Position numbers and translations under genes: made by a program. From a virus: 44,638 nucleotides of DNA. Positions 3,215-11,694 of the stretch are shown one piece after another (within the stretch, counting starts at the first letter, position 1; each line of letters begins with the position of its first letter). The notes below the pieces were generated by a model. That model was not told the DNA's origin, did not search any database, and was given only the letters and a program-made list of their open reading frames with translations. The stretch spans positions 1 through 44,638 of IMG/VR virus record IMGVR_UViG_3300037882_001703. One strand, given 5' to 3'.

Positions 3215-3222
3215 TACATTTG
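3215..3222 (+). promoter_or_regulatory. -7 box of leader RNA D
   Basis: TACATTTG matches TAnnTTTG. Transcription would start near 3229, giving a leader of about 160 nt before the ATG at 3392. No convincing -33 TTTG is present. Confidence 0.5.
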
Positions 3223-3228
3223 CATTGT

Positions 3229-3391
3229 GGAACTGATAATCCCACAACATCTACACTTAGATAAAACAGAACAAAATGACAACATATTTTTATTTAACAA
3301 CGACCCATAAAGTCGGTAATTACACAAGCCAGTTCTGTTGCTTGTAGGTCTTATCAACCGTTACCGACTTTATGGGTTTTATATTTTATTT
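3229..3391 (+). ncRNA. Leader RNA D: 17-bp hairpin with kissing loop ahead of the start codon
   Basis: Plus-strand structures in order: TTGTGG/CCACAA hairpin near 3225-3247; hairpin H1 TTAGATAAAA (3257-3266) with TTTTATTTAA (3288-3297), whose loop holds CAGAAC (3267-3272); a perfect 17-bp stem from 3303-3319 with 3361-3377. Inside that stem is a smaller hairpin ACAAGC (3323-3328)/GCTTGT (3340-3345) whose apical loop shows GTTCTG (3332-3337), complementary to the H1 loop. The long stem is followed by a U-rich tract (TTTATATTTTATTT) and the ATG at 3392. This could be a terminator/attenuator or a translation-blocking structure for the next gene. Confidence 0.6.
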
Positions 3392-3880
3392 ATGCAAAAT
3401 TCAATAGCAGTTCTTTATTCAAAAGAACAAAAGTGTTGGCACTTAGAAACTTTGATGGAGTATTTATTATCAAATCAAAGGTTTTTATTAGATGTTACAA
3501 AAGTTCAACAGTATAGGTTTGTGTGTTTATTTAATTCTTGGGATGAAGCAAAAGACTTTGTTGGGAAGAACAGAGATATGTTTAAGGTGGAATTGGATTT
3601 TAAAAAAGATATAGAAAGAATTGTTGTATATAATAAAGAATTGTTTAGAAATGATAGGTTGATAAGAATATGCGAGTATATTTTATTGAAATTAAACGAA
3701 TTGAATTATGATTTGCACCTTATCCATTCATTAAGTGAACACGAAGGAGAGTTTTCCCTATCATTAGAAGAAACACTATACCATTCCGATATTTCAGATG
3801 TTGAAAATGTATTTAAAGAAATGTTAGAAAGCGAAAATGAATACTCATATCAAATAGTTTGCAATTATAATAACCAATAG
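3392..3880 (+). CDS. Hypothetical protein behind leader RNA D (162 aa)
   Basis: The ATG at 3392, just after the U-rich tract of the 17-bp hairpin, is chosen. A longer frame from 3338 would start inside the hairpin loop and translate through the stem. The protein begins MQNSIAVLYSKEQKCWHLET and is mostly helical, with hydrophobic and acidic patches (LRICEYILLKLNELNYDLHL, SLSEHEGEFSLSLEETLYHS). No family recognised. It is followed after 2 bases by the DUF4373 gene, so the pair is co-transcribed, and leader RNA D may therefore set expression of the replication genes downstream. Confidence 0.7.
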   Translation: MQNSIAVLYSKEQKCWHLETLMEYLLSNQRFLLDVTKVQQYRFVCLFNSWDEAKDFVGKNRDMFKVELDFKKDIERIVVYNKELFRNDRLIRICEYILLKLNELNYDLHLIHSLSEHEGEFSLSLEETLYHSDISDVENVFKEMLESENEYSYQIVCNYNNQ

Positions 3881-8856: not shown

Positions 8857-9666
8857 ATGATTATAAATTACGATAAGTCTAAGAAAATAATTACGGAGCA
8901 GGAAATACTTGAATCTGAAAACCATAACACAGCTACTCAATCTAAATTACTAGAGAATGAGAATGTAGAATTAGAAAAAAGAAAAAAGTATAGAGAGAAT
9001 GTATTTGGGTTAAAAGCACCTAAAGGACGTATTATAATTTCTATTGATTTGGATTACAAAAATTGGGTTAATATTGGGTTTGGAACTAATTTAAGACTTG
9101 AAAGAGATAACGATAATTTAGATAGAAAATACACAGCACCAACAAATGCCTATGTTATTGATGCAGAAAATATACCAATAGGAGCAGAAATAATAGTACA
9201 GCACAACTGCGACCACGATACCAATAGGATATTTTCAGTAGATGAAGATATGGACGTTCAAAACCTGCATTACTATTCAATACCTGTTGAAGCTGCTTAC
9301 ATTTGGAGATTAGGAGAAGATGAATGGAAACCTTGTGAAAACTTTGCATTAGGATTAAGGGTATTTGAACCTTACAATGGTATTATCGAGGGTGTATTGC
9401 CAAAAGAATTAAAAGACACAATTTTTATAACCAGCGATTGCGATATAAAAGGCAAAGTCGTTAAAACATTAAAAGCAAGTTTGTATGAAATGTGTTTTAA
9501 TGATTCTAACTCAAAAGAAAAAAGAATTATACGAATAAGGCACTCCGAAAATACAAATTACGACCGAGAAGAGGTTGTGGTTATTTGTAATTATTTGACA
9601 CAAAAGGTAAAAAATAAAGAATTACTTATAGGAGTTAATATAAAAAATGCGAAATATGTAGATTAA
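8857..9666 (+). CDS. Hypothetical protein (269 aa)
   Basis: Co-transcribed with the RHH gene (1-base gap). The N-terminal 45 residues are helical and charged (EQEILESENHN, LLENENVELEKRKKYRENVF). From residue about 55 the protein is beta-rich: GRIIISIDLDYKNWVNIGFG, YVIDAENIPIGAEIIVQHNC, AYIWRLGEDEWKP. Phrases such as PTNAYVIDAENIPIGAEII have a faint resemblance to co-chaperonin-like beta barrels but lack a recognisable mobile loop, so I do not assign that function. Four Cys and several His residues are not arranged as an obvious metal site. No family recognised. Confidence 0.75.
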   Translation: MIINYDKSKKIITEQEILESENHNTATQSKLLENENVELEKRKKYRENVFGLKAPKGRIIISIDLDYKNWVNIGFGTNLRLERDNDNLDRKYTAPTNAYVIDAENIPIGAEIIVQHNCDHDTNRIFSVDEDMDVQNLHYYSIPVEAAYIWRLGEDEWKPCENFALGLRVFEPYNGIIEGVLPKELKDTIFITSDCDIKGKVVKTLKASLYEMCFNDSNSKEKRIIRIRHSENTNYDREEVVVICNYLTQKVKNKELLIGVNIKNAKYVD

Positions 9667-9668
9667 TT

Positions 9669-9790
9669 AGCATATTTGCAATGCTTACTTATCGTACAAT
9701 GTATAAATTATTTAATTTTATTGCCCATTTCAGTTGCATCTACACTTTATTGTGCGATGGTAAGCCTTCTGTCTTGGGCTTTATTATTTT
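9669..9790 (+). ncRNA. Leader RNA B: pseudoknotted terminator-like element before HNH endonuclease 1
   Basis: A -7 box variant, CATATTTG (about 9671-9678), precedes the RNA. Strand a: GCTTAC (9683-9688) and ATCGTACAAT (9691-9700) pair with ATTGTGCGAT (9749-9758) and GTAAGC (9760-9765). Strand b: GCCCA (9723-9727) and CAG (9731-9733) pair with CTG (9769-9771) and TGGGC (9775-9779), followed by TTTATTATTTT and the ATG at 9791. The order a, b, a', b' is a pseudoknot. Leader RNA C before the second HNH gene shares layout and partial sequence, with compensatory changes. A 37-codon frame (9681-9794) also runs through it and ends overlapping the HNH start (ATGA). Confidence 0.6.
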
Positions 9791-10423
9791 ATGAAAACAG
9801 AAAATATAATAGATAATATCTATGGTCGTTTAAAAGTTAAAGAAGAAGCAGATAGGCATATACAACCAAATGGGAAAAGAATAAGAATGTTTTTATGTTT
9901 ATGTGAGTGTGGTAATGAAAAATCATATAGGCTATATCAATTATTAAGTGACAGAGTAAAAAGTTGCGGATGTTTTCAAAGAGAGCAAACAAGTAAAGCA
10001 AGGAAAACACACGGAGAATGTAAAACAGTAGAATATAGGTGTTGGTATCATATGAAAACAAGATGTTATAATAAAAATGCAAATAGGTATAAAAATTATG
10101 GTGGTCGGGGCATAAAAGTTTGTGATAGGTGGCTACATAGTTACGAAAATTTTTTAGCAGATATGGGTAGAAAACCTACACAAAAACATTCGATTGATAG
10201 AATTGATGTAAATGGAAATTACGAATCAAATAATTGCAGGTGGGCAACTACGAAAGAGCAGGGGGAAAATACTACAACTAATGTGTATTATTATTTCAAT
10301 GGTGAGAAAAAAACTATTACACAAATTGCACAAAATGTTGGGATGGATAGGAAAGTGTTATGGGCAAGAGTAAATAAGCAAAAATTATCATTAGAACAAG
10401 CTGTGATCAATAAATTAAGGTAA
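9791..10423 (+). CDS. HNH homing endonuclease 1 with zinc ribbon and C-terminal HTH
   Basis: A 210-aa protein. N-terminal zinc ribbon: CLCECGN near residue 37 and SCGC near 62. HNH domain: W..M..RCYNKNANRYKNYGGRGI, then a helix (WLHSYENFLADMG) and HSIDRIDVNGNYESNNCRWA, the signature of phage free-standing HNH endonucleases with DRID..G.Y...NCRW. The C-terminus is a small helix-turn-helix (TITQIAQNVGMDRKVLWARV) that probably reads the target. It cuts DNA at a specific site to spread its own gene by repair. Start at the ATG directly after the U-rich tract of leader RNA B. It lies in an accessory stretch between unrelated genes, as expected for a mobile gene. Confidence 0.88.
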   Translation: MKTENIIDNIYGRLKVKEEADRHIQPNGKRIRMFLCLCECGNEKSYRLYQLLSDRVKSCGCFQREQTSKARKTHGECKTVEYRCWYHMKTRCYNKNANRYKNYGGRGIKVCDRWLHSYENFLADMGRKPTQKHSIDRIDVNGNYESNNCRWATTKEQGENTTTNVYYYFNGEKKTITQIAQNVGMDRKVLWARVNKQKLSLEQAVINKLR

Positions 10424-10477
10424 ATAAAAGGGAACTATTAATCGGTTTGAATAACAAAAATTGTAAATAAAATAACT

Positions 10478-10513
10478 ATGGCAGATACAGAAATAGTACA
10501 AGAAGAAACATTG
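10478..10513 (+). pseudogene. Severed 5' end of the small-terminase-candidate gene
   Basis: The ATG at 10478 has a good A-rich leader and encodes MADTEIVQEETL, then runs into the -7 box and RNA C and becomes a nonsense tail ending at 10654. The intact gene at 11344 starts MSSEIIAETLEQK. Both align at EI(V/I)..ETL, and the DNA GAAACATTG matches GAAACTTTA at the same place and frame. The simplest reading is that the RNA C + HNH 2 cassette was inserted just after ETL and brought, or was followed by, a replacement start for the gene. It could instead be a real 58-aa overlapping gene. Confidence 0.45.
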
Positions 10514-10521
10514 TATATTTG
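10514..10521 (+). promoter_or_regulatory. -7 box of leader RNA C
   Basis: TATATTTG, a perfect TAnnTTTG box. RNA C begins 4 bases later by structure. The corresponding box of RNA B lies at the same distance, indicating that the promoter is part of the mobile cassette. Confidence 0.6.
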
Positions 10522-10525
10522 TAAC

Positions 10526-10634
10526 GCTAATTCACAATATAATGTTAAAATCATTAATTTTATCGCCCTTTCAGATGCCTCTCATACTTCATTGTATTTG
10601 TGGATTAGCCTTCTGTTAGGGCTTTATTTTTTTT
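10526..10634 (+). ncRNA. Leader RNA C: pseudoknotted element before HNH endonuclease 2
   Basis: Strand a: GCTAATTCACAATATAATG (10526-10544) pairs with the segment 10590-10609 (CATTGTATTTGTGG + ATTAGC) with one bulge. Strand b: GCCCT (10565-10569) and CAGA (10572-10575) pair with TCTG (10612-10615) and AGGGC (10618-10622), followed by TTTATTTTTTTT and the ATG at 10635. Compared with RNA B, the b stem keeps pairing while its closing pair changes (GCCCA/TGGGC to GCCCT/AGGGC), and stem a differs in sequence but not in form. Shared sequence includes TTTCAG and GCCTTCTGT. Confidence 0.62.
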
Positions 10635-11351
10635 ATGGGAACAAAAATTTGTAAACATTGCAATATTGAAAAAGACATAAGTGAATACTACAAAGCTGGT
10701 AAGGGGAAATGGTTTCAACCGTATTGTAAACCTTGTGATACAATAAGAAAACGCAATTATGCAGAAAAAAATCAAAGTAGAGTAAAAGAATATCATTTAA
10801 CTTATTATGAAAATAATAAAGGAATAATAAGAGAACGTGAAAAAAATAAAAGAACTAAATACAGAATAGAAAACCCTATACATCATAAACCTAAAAAAGA
10901 ATTAGATAACGAGAAAAAAAGGGATTATATGCGTAATTGGAGATTGGCAAATAAAGATAAATTAAAAAAGTATAGTGAAATTCATTTTACATACGAAAAA
11001 CGAAAAGAATACAAAAAGAAGTATCAGAGAGAACAAATGAATAAGCCTGAATATGTTTTGCTTAAAAGACTAAGAGGGCGAATTTATATGGCTTTAAAAA
11101 GAGGAGTTAAATCGGAAACGACAATATCTCTACTTGGGTGTTCGATAGATTTTTTTAAAGAGTATATAGCAAAAATGTTTATGGATGGTATGTCTTGGGA
11201 TAATATGGGGGATTGGCACTTAGACCACAAAAAACCGTGTGTTTTATTTAATTTAACAAACGATGATGAACAAAAAAAATGCTTCCATTATACTAATATT
11301 CAGCCATTATGGAGTAATGATAACTTAAAAAAAGGTATAAAATATGAGTAG
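10635..11351 (+). CDS. HNH homing endonuclease 2 with N-terminal zinc ribbon
   Basis: A 238-aa protein. Residues 4-32: KICKHCNIEKDISEYYK then PYCKPC, a C2-C2 zinc ribbon. A long, very basic coiled region follows (about 40-140). The C-terminal nuclease part contains WHLDHKKPCVLFNL, CFHYTNIQPLW and NDNLKKG, the usual D-H / N-Q-P-L-W / N..K signature of phage HNH endonucleases. It starts immediately behind the U-tract of leader RNA C and ends overlapping the next gene by 8 bases. It seems to have been inserted into the start of the small terminase candidate. Confidence 0.85.
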   Translation: MGTKICKHCNIEKDISEYYKAGKGKWFQPYCKPCDTIRKRNYAEKNQSRVKEYHLTYYENNKGIIREREKNKRTKYRIENPIHHKPKKELDNEKKRDYMRNWRLANKDKLKKYSEIHFTYEKRKEYKKKYQREQMNKPEYVLLKRLRGRIYMALKRGVKSETTISLLGCSIDFFKEYIAKMFMDGMSWDNMGDWHLDHKKPCVLFNLTNDDEQKKCFHYTNIQPLWSNDNLKKGIKYE

Positions 11352-11694
11352 TGAAATAATTGCAGAAACTTTAGAACAAAAAGTAGAAAAGTTTGAAAAA
11401 AGATGTATTTTATTGCAAGAGAAAATTGATTTATATGAGAATGGGGAACAAAATCTATATAGGTCATTGCAAAAAAAAATGAATGAAATATCTTCATTTT
11501 TAAATTCAAATAGCCTCAATAAAATTGATTTAACTGATAAATCTAAGGAATTTGAAAGAATTTTCTTAGTAATGAGTAAATGTGAAACATTGGCTACATC
11601 TGTAAAATCATTTGGGGAAATGTGTGGTGCTATTGATATTAAAAAGGAAGATAAAAAATCATTTGTTGATACCATTGCAGTTAAAAGAGATTAA
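11344..11694 (+). CDS. Small terminase subunit candidate (116 aa)
   Basis: Directly upstream of the large terminase, overlapping it by one base (TAATG). Mostly helical: LEQKVEKFEKRCILLQEKIDL is a clear coiled coil, followed by a second helical region. Position, size and coiled coil fit a TerS, which binds packaging sites and feeds DNA to TerL. No obvious HTH is visible at the N-terminus, so the call rests mainly on context. The N-terminus may have been rebuilt after insertion of the upstream HNH cassette (see 10478-10513). Confidence 0.55.
   Translation: MSSEIIAETLEQKVEKFEKRCILLQEKIDLYENGEQNLYRSLQKKMNEISSFLNSNSLNKIDLTDKSKEFERIFLVMSKCETLATSVKSFGEMCGAIDIKKEDKKSFVDTIAVKRD

Follow-up and report, generated by a model that had tools for sequence, protein, structure and literature searches.

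Two HNH endonuclease genes follow one another in the 44.6-kb virus record analysed here (the whole stretch, referred to as the window), and each is preceded by a leader of similar sequence. This raises the question of what these two leaders, B and C, are, and why unrelated endonuclease genes should be headed by the same kind of element. To our knowledge, the control of homing endonucleases has been worked out almost solely in T4-like phages. The reading preferred here, with a probability of about 0.5, is that B and C represent a portable leader RNA, cis-acting and carried along in free-standing homing-endonuclease cassettes, which acts as a transcription attenuator.

Position and pairing of the two leaders

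The large terminase of the window has relatives at 53-56% identity. In several of these relatives, the equivalent of the gene at 8857-9666 is directly followed by a small-terminase-like gene, which overlaps it or begins a few bases further on, and in the window two units of RNA plus HNH gene (9667-11343) sit between the two. The features are as follows.

9671-9678, + strand: -7 promoter box of B, CATATTTG, one mismatch to TAnnTTTG; predicted +1 at 9683
9683-9701, + strand: B, 5' strand of helix a, GCTTACTTATCGTACAATG
9702-9722, + strand: B, loop 1, AU-rich, with the TTTAATTT motif that is also present in copies D-G
9723-9733, + strand: B, 5' strand of helix b, GCCCA(TTT)CAG
9748-9765, + strand: B, 3' strand of helix a, inside the loop of hairpin b
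9769-9779, + strand: B, 3' strand of helix b, CTG(TCT)TGGGC
9780-9790, + strand: B, U tract up to the start codon, tail TTTATTATTTT
9791-10423, + strand: HNH endonuclease 1, 210 aa, phrog_374 (E 1.5e-62)
10478-10513, + strand: orphan 5' fragment of the small-terminase-like gene (MADTEIVQEETL), apparently severed by the C cassette
10514-10521, + strand: -7 promoter box of C, TATATTTG, matching TAnnTTTG; predicted +1 at 10526
10526-10544, + strand: C, 5' strand of helix a, GCTAATTCACAATATAATG
10565-10575, + strand: C, 5' strand of helix b, GCCCT(TT)CAGA
10590-10609, + strand: C, 3' strand of helix a, CATTGTATTTGTGGATTAGC
10612-10622, + strand: C, 3' strand of helix b, TCTG(TT)AGGGC
10623-10634, + strand: C, U tract up to the start codon
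10635-11351, + strand: HNH endonuclease 2, 238 aa, EndoVII-like, phrog_1035 (E 1.1e-16); its stop overlaps the next start
11344-11694, + strand: small-terminase-like gene with a replaced N-terminus, immediately 5' of the large terminase

For the window, the flanking genes of the presumed free-standing cassettes are adjacent only in more distant relatives. A sign of co-conversion is given by the orphan N-terminal fragment together with the replaced N-terminus of the small-terminase-like gene: the ATG at 10478 opens MADTEIVQEETL, which resembles both MSSEIIAETL (11344) and MAETIEDL of the relative L115. Judged by sequence, this gene seems to have lost its old start to the C cassette and to have gained a new N-terminus (11344-11380) that begins within the end of the second HNH gene. 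In another contig, L121 (IMGVR_UViG_3300049043_000348), the terminase and portal frames appear split compared with relatives, possibly through sequencing errors.

An earlier note on this DNA had placed the leaders at 9683-9779 and 10526-10622, with the order a-b-a'-b', i.e., a pseudoknot, and both the location and the order are correct: B and C are 75.4% identical across 122 nt (E 2e-16 inside the window). Helix a (9683-9701/9748-9765 in B, 10526-10544/10590-10609 in C; one bulge each) is paired in both copies, with 18 of the 18 common pairs standard despite 13 substitutions, six on the 5' arm and seven on the 3' arm, so that five pairs changed on both sides and three on one. If the arms mutated independently, survival of all 18 pairs would have a P of about 4e-6 (trials); the bulges were placed by eye, which makes the true P larger, and the effect is still strong. 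Pairing in helix b, which is longer than first described, is kept by co-variation, from GCCCA(UUU)CAG/CUG(UCU)UGGGC in B to GCCCU(UU)CAGA/UCUG(UU)AGGGC in C, and its internal loop has one base fewer per strand in C, which breaks the frame and keeps the helix. These two-sided changes in a and b bear out the suggestion of a selected RNA with compensatory change, which the homologues described below confirm and extend. Covariation was counted by hand, as B/C could not be aligned with D-G by MAFFT. Minimum free energy folding by itself is unremarkable (z -1.2, -1.0); the evidence for a structured RNA is the covariation.

Protein conservation was rejected as the cause of the likeness between B and C, since single-base indels between them break any shared frame. 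A coding explanation is further opposed by A, D, E, J, and L, which have stops in all three frames; the B and C intervals do contain open frames. A terminator-like AGCC/GGCU hairpin that B and C can form locally was likewise set aside, as it is absent from D-G, and the conserved terminator-like feature is hairpin b with its U tract. At gathering score, Rfam 15 gave no family for the window or for the homologues L020 and L280.

Homologues and cassettes in other phages

Exact-pattern scans of viral contigs with B/C returned chance matches only, blastn with B or C against phages returned no match, and no match to the element was obtained in plasmids. The covariance model from B and C that had been proposed as a check (R1) matched little in other phages beyond the promoter box. 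Homologues came to light only when the sequence ahead of a related HNH gene was inspected in the Elemovirus elemoA_10-9C (L020), a Flavobacterium phage, in which leader D precedes this EndoVII-like HNH gene; relatives of the element span 95-105 nt. From 5' to 3', D consists of a TATATTTG box, helix a (CCGCCAAG/CTTGGCGG), an AU-rich loop with TTAATTT, helix b (ACCCTCT(TTA)TAG / CTA(TTT)AGAGGGT), a U tract, and the ATG. Its sister phages carry D at 100% identity. In Polaribacter Freya phages the identity is 88% (E 4e-24), and the copy there, E, shows a compensatory change of the inner pairs of b from TAG/CTA to GAG/CTC and precedes a gene for a metallo-beta-lactamase-fold hydrolase (phrog_392), not an endonuclease. 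A pattern scan with D added two further copies in uncultured phages, L349 and L353, before GIY-YIG homing endonucleases, that of L349 carrying Pfam GIY-YIG and NUMOD3. The L349/L353 cassettes appear antisense to both neighbours and have an ordinary terminator-like hairpin at their end. The length of loop 2 tracks that of helix a (about 4 nt with 8 bp, about 14 nt with 18-19 bp), as expected if loop 2 spans helix a. Copies D to G form one close lineage and so count once as independent evidence, beside B/C and the G044/G045 set introduced below. A second similar leader is present in Polaribacter phage Freya_1 (L416:2624-2748), after TATATTTG and before a DnaD-like replication gene, with GGTGGAA/TTCCACC and CTCTTAATGC/GCGTTAAGGG followed by nine T; together with E it suggests that native early genes, too, may be served by leaders of this kind.

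The two HNH proteins of the window are indeed not close homologues (phrog_374 versus the EndoVII-like phrog_1035), and the claim that different endonucleases have retained the RNA is strengthened by the homologues before EndoVII-like HNH and GIY-YIG genes. That the RNA is specific to HNH genes is contradicted by the GIY-YIG homing endonucleases and the Freya metallo-hydrolase, which carry the leader too. RNAs that are about 88% identical precede EndoVII-like HNH and metallo-hydrolase genes, and close relatives precede GIY-YIG genes. Near-identical RNAs before unrelated protein folds make a generic target, polymerase or ribosome, likely, and make autoregulation by the endonuclease, guide RNA, and antitoxin roles unlikely. 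Consequently, although the order of promoter, pseudoknotted RNA, terminator-like hairpin, and nuclease is like that of type III toxin-antitoxin loci (PMC5086642), it is extremely improbable that the endonuclease has in the RNA its partner, guide, or antitoxin, in the manner of omegaRNA/HEARO with IscB or ToxI with ToxN: near-identical RNAs stand before HNH, GIY-YIG, and metallo-beta-lactamase folds, tandem repeats are absent, and Rfam gave no match.

When elemoA_7-9A is aligned to elemoA_10-9C, the RNA and the HNH gene are found to be jointly absent from elemoA_7-9A. The left boundary of the insertion lies just 5' of the -7 box, and in the next gene the first ~40 codons have diverged before identity returns. 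Homing with co-conversion leaves such a pattern, and the window shows the same. The homology between B and C also begins at the left boundary of the cassette, as might be anticipated if the feature acted as DNA, e.g., as a cruciform, a recombination end, or a nuclease site at the cassette boundary. Such a role is very unlikely, as helix a tolerates U-G pairs as well as C-G pairs turned into U-G by a change on one side, the orientation is fixed with respect to promoter and ATG, and the Freya copy stands at an unrelated gene.

The descriptor used for the wider search asks for a hairpin that runs straight into a U-rich tail, 7-26 nt ahead of an ATG, and whose loop pairs with an upstream segment. 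Similar layouts were found before EndoVII-like HNH genes in two further phage contigs, at two genes in G044 and at three in G045. The promoter-like upstream sequence and the stems of these leaders differ from those of the other copies, and a helix a of TGTCTGTCGTGG/CCACGACTGACA recurs in two of them, across G044 and G045. Compared with shuffled sequence, the individual a:a' pairings have weak to moderate significance (p 0.02-0.09); over six unlike families, the combined value for a:a' is 1.5e-6, for helices that were chosen after looking. The G044/G045 leaders are probably further members, and it counts in favour of an attenuator leader that endonuclease genes elsewhere are headed by this layout although the stem sequences are unrelated. 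Both G045 (IMGVR_UViG_3300032294_002797, 223 kb) and G044 (IMGVR_UViG_3300032303_001618, 52 kb) contain several EndoVII-like HNH genes (phrog_1035), many of them with an upstream GGTGTA(T)-type sequence resembling a phage-specific promoter.

Over all loci analysed, a descriptor score of 38 or more was reached by 11 of 185 endonuclease ORFs and by 18 of 5514 others (odds ratio 19). In a reduced set, which leaves out the window, the loci fetched because of the RNA, and the follow-up regions, the counts were 5/153 and 8/3908 (odds ratio 16.5, p 7e-5), where two of the five endonuclease matches represent one lineage and two (L270 and L272) are disbelieved. The enrichment modestly backs the link between RNA and endonuclease. 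L270 and L272 score highly without having the layout and were excluded from the members; a hairpin at 4672 in L114 was dropped, as it lies inside a reading frame. One further candidate is located in the window itself.

3215-3391, + strand: candidate member A, with box TACATTTG, helix a AACAGAAC/GTTCTGTT, U tract, and then ATG

Hairpin b of this candidate has 17 bp (ACCCATAAAGTCGGTAA/TTACCGACTTTATGGGT, -23.5 kcal/mol), its a:a' pairing is weak by itself (shuffle p 0.09), and it precedes an ORF (3392-3880) with a weak match to phrog_6104, not an endonuclease. Its loop holds an additional ACAAGC/GCTTGT hairpin.

A discrete unit that runs from promoter box to U tract, of which the Freya copy lacks an endonuclease gene, could also be a stand-alone small RNA with promoter and terminator that acts in trans, the endonuclease genes being passengers behind it. 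This is unlikely, given that the RNA and the endonuclease of Elemovirus are present or absent jointly, that the start codon always lies 11-22 nt from b, and that the flavobacterial and G044/G045 types share little sequence, unlike what a trans-acting partner would require.

Promoter and proposed mode of action

In Flavobacterium psychrophilum, the sigma-A box TAnnTTTG occupies -12 to -5 (PMC9723704), and with this spacing helix a of B and of C would begin exactly at the predicted +1. The box is exact in A, C, D, E, F, and G and has one mismatch in B; helix a starts 5 nt after it in B/C and 8-10 nt after it in D-G, the transcription start sites being predicted. The -33 TTG element was not seen in B or C, and copy F alone has a TTG, with 22 nt spacing. 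By sequence, the claim that the leaders have their own promoters is thus half supported: the -7 box is conserved in flavobacterial-type copies, and the -33 element was not seen in most. The strongest, albeit indirect, support for an own promoter comes from the L349/L353 copies: a cassette that is apparently antisense to both flanking genes would need one.

The leader is best described as a terminator-like hairpin b plus U tract near the start codon, the loop of which, a', is paired with the 5' segment a. A terminator-like hairpin beside the start codon had been noted for B and C, and b with its U tract is present in all 13 tabulated elements. Hairpin b abuts the U-rich tail in 13/13, with 7-11 T in the first 11-12 nt, where some of the 13 were picked with the descriptor that requires a U tail and B-G came from reading or from sequence comparison. 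Hairpin b alone amounts to -6.9 to -23.5 kcal/mol in these elements. The start codon follows 11-22 nt after b, and in every tabulated copy neither it nor the nucleotides in between take part in helix a or b. As to the suggestion that the pseudoknot could switch the hairpin, helices a and b do not overlap and are therefore not simply mutually exclusive states.

In the proposed mechanism, transcription would start at the promoter box directly upstream of the leader, and the first 95-105 nt would fold into hairpin b, with a GC-rich base and usually a 2-3 nt U-rich internal loop, the loop of which (a') would pair with the 5' segment a to form the pseudoknot. Hairpin b and the U tract may then stop most transcripts 5' of the endonuclease start codon, so that only read-through mRNA would be translated and a potentially harmful nuclease would be kept low. 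The a:a' pairing would precede transcription of b' and might tune how often the hairpin forms in time. Several points speak against attenuation. Termination may be weak, since A or G breaks up the U tracts. A classical terminator/antiterminator exchange would need helices a and b to overlap, which they do not. Most copies lack the -33 element, and the Freya RNA precedes a non-endonuclease gene.

Alternatively, the leader may be a 5' UTR element for translation or mRNA stability, in which the pseudoknot shields the 5' end and the start region is single-stranded or occluded until unfolded, without any termination. The predicted +1 on helix a would give a structured 5' end, the start region itself is unpaired, and T4 relatives use leader hairpins at the level of translation (PMC2988022). 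This alternative, the main rival, is nevertheless rather unlikely, as the GC-rich base of the hairpin and the conserved U tract are the mark of a terminator and would be unneeded in a stabiliser. With attenuation as the preferred reading, it is tentatively proposed that the leaders represent a new class of cis-acting phage RNA, namely, an attenuator with a terminator loop pseudoknotted to the 5' end, which is a portable module of unrelated homing endonucleases and some early genes in phages with different promoter types. If such a leader does move between phages and unrelated endonucleases, the selfish unit would be 'regulator plus nuclease' rather than the nuclease alone, and the harmless landing of endonuclease genes in new operons would be explained. 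The portable leader RNA looks like a volume control that travels with DNA-cutting genes.

Comparison with known systems

No description of the element was found in the literature covered, which leaves out most subscription journals and all bioRxiv preprints, and among the known analogues found none is a pseudoknotted portable leader. An HDV-like ribozyme was rejected, as there is no equivalent of P3 or P4 of its P1-P4 layout and no Rfam match. HEARO/omegaRNA with IscB was rejected as well: the proteins, of 210 and 238 aa, match phrog_374 and phrog_1035, and again Rfam gave no match. PreQ1 class I and other pseudoknot attenuators (riboswitches) have an H-type pseudoknot in the leader by the expression platform. 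The present RNA differs from preQ1 class I in that helix b is itself the terminator-like stem, no conserved exclusive alternative pairing is present, and no Rfam match was obtained.

Type III toxin-antitoxin loci such as ToxIN and CptIN are similar in having a promoter, a pseudoknotted RNA, a terminator, and a nuclease gene; they contain a Rho-independent terminator, repeats, and ToxN-like proteins (PMC5086642). Here, in contrast, a single structure comprises both pseudoknot and terminator-like hairpin, and the RNA is common to unrelated proteins. This type of system was rejected, since there is a single RNA unit without tandem repeats and the proteins (HNH, GIY-YIG, metallo-hydrolase) are none of them ToxN-like.

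The homing endonucleases of T4 are restrained by hairpins that sequester the ribosome binding site (RBS) and by autorepression, and mobE and segF by internal terminators; about 30% of T4 transcripts stop at a terminator within mobE, and the regulation of such genes is multi-layered (PMC2988022). The present elements have the features of an intrinsic terminator, i.e., a GC-rich hairpin and an immediate U-rich tract, in 13/13 tabulated cases, and, as with mobE and segF, partial termination would limit endonuclease transcripts (PMC2988022). The mobE/segF terminators lie inside the coding region, whereas the hairpin described here precedes the start codon and has its loop pseudoknotted to the 5' end. 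Leader hairpins are known for I-TevI, I-TevII, I-TevIII, T4 segB, and Aeh1 mobE, and seg43(25) has a hairpin upstream of the RBS (PMC2988022). The likeness to these T4-type hairpins consists of a structured RNA just 5' of the start of a phage homing endonuclease, a nearby promoter, and a presumed repressive effect (PMC2988022). However, the T4-type hairpins form when transcription comes from promoters further upstream, and they engage the Shine-Dalgarno site in pairing (PMC2988022); RBS pairing within the hairpin was not found here, the 11-22 nt before the start being unpaired in all tabulated copies. The present RNA is instead a pseudoknot behind its own promoter box, with a free start region, and is common to HNH, EndoVII-like, and GIY-YIG endonucleases.
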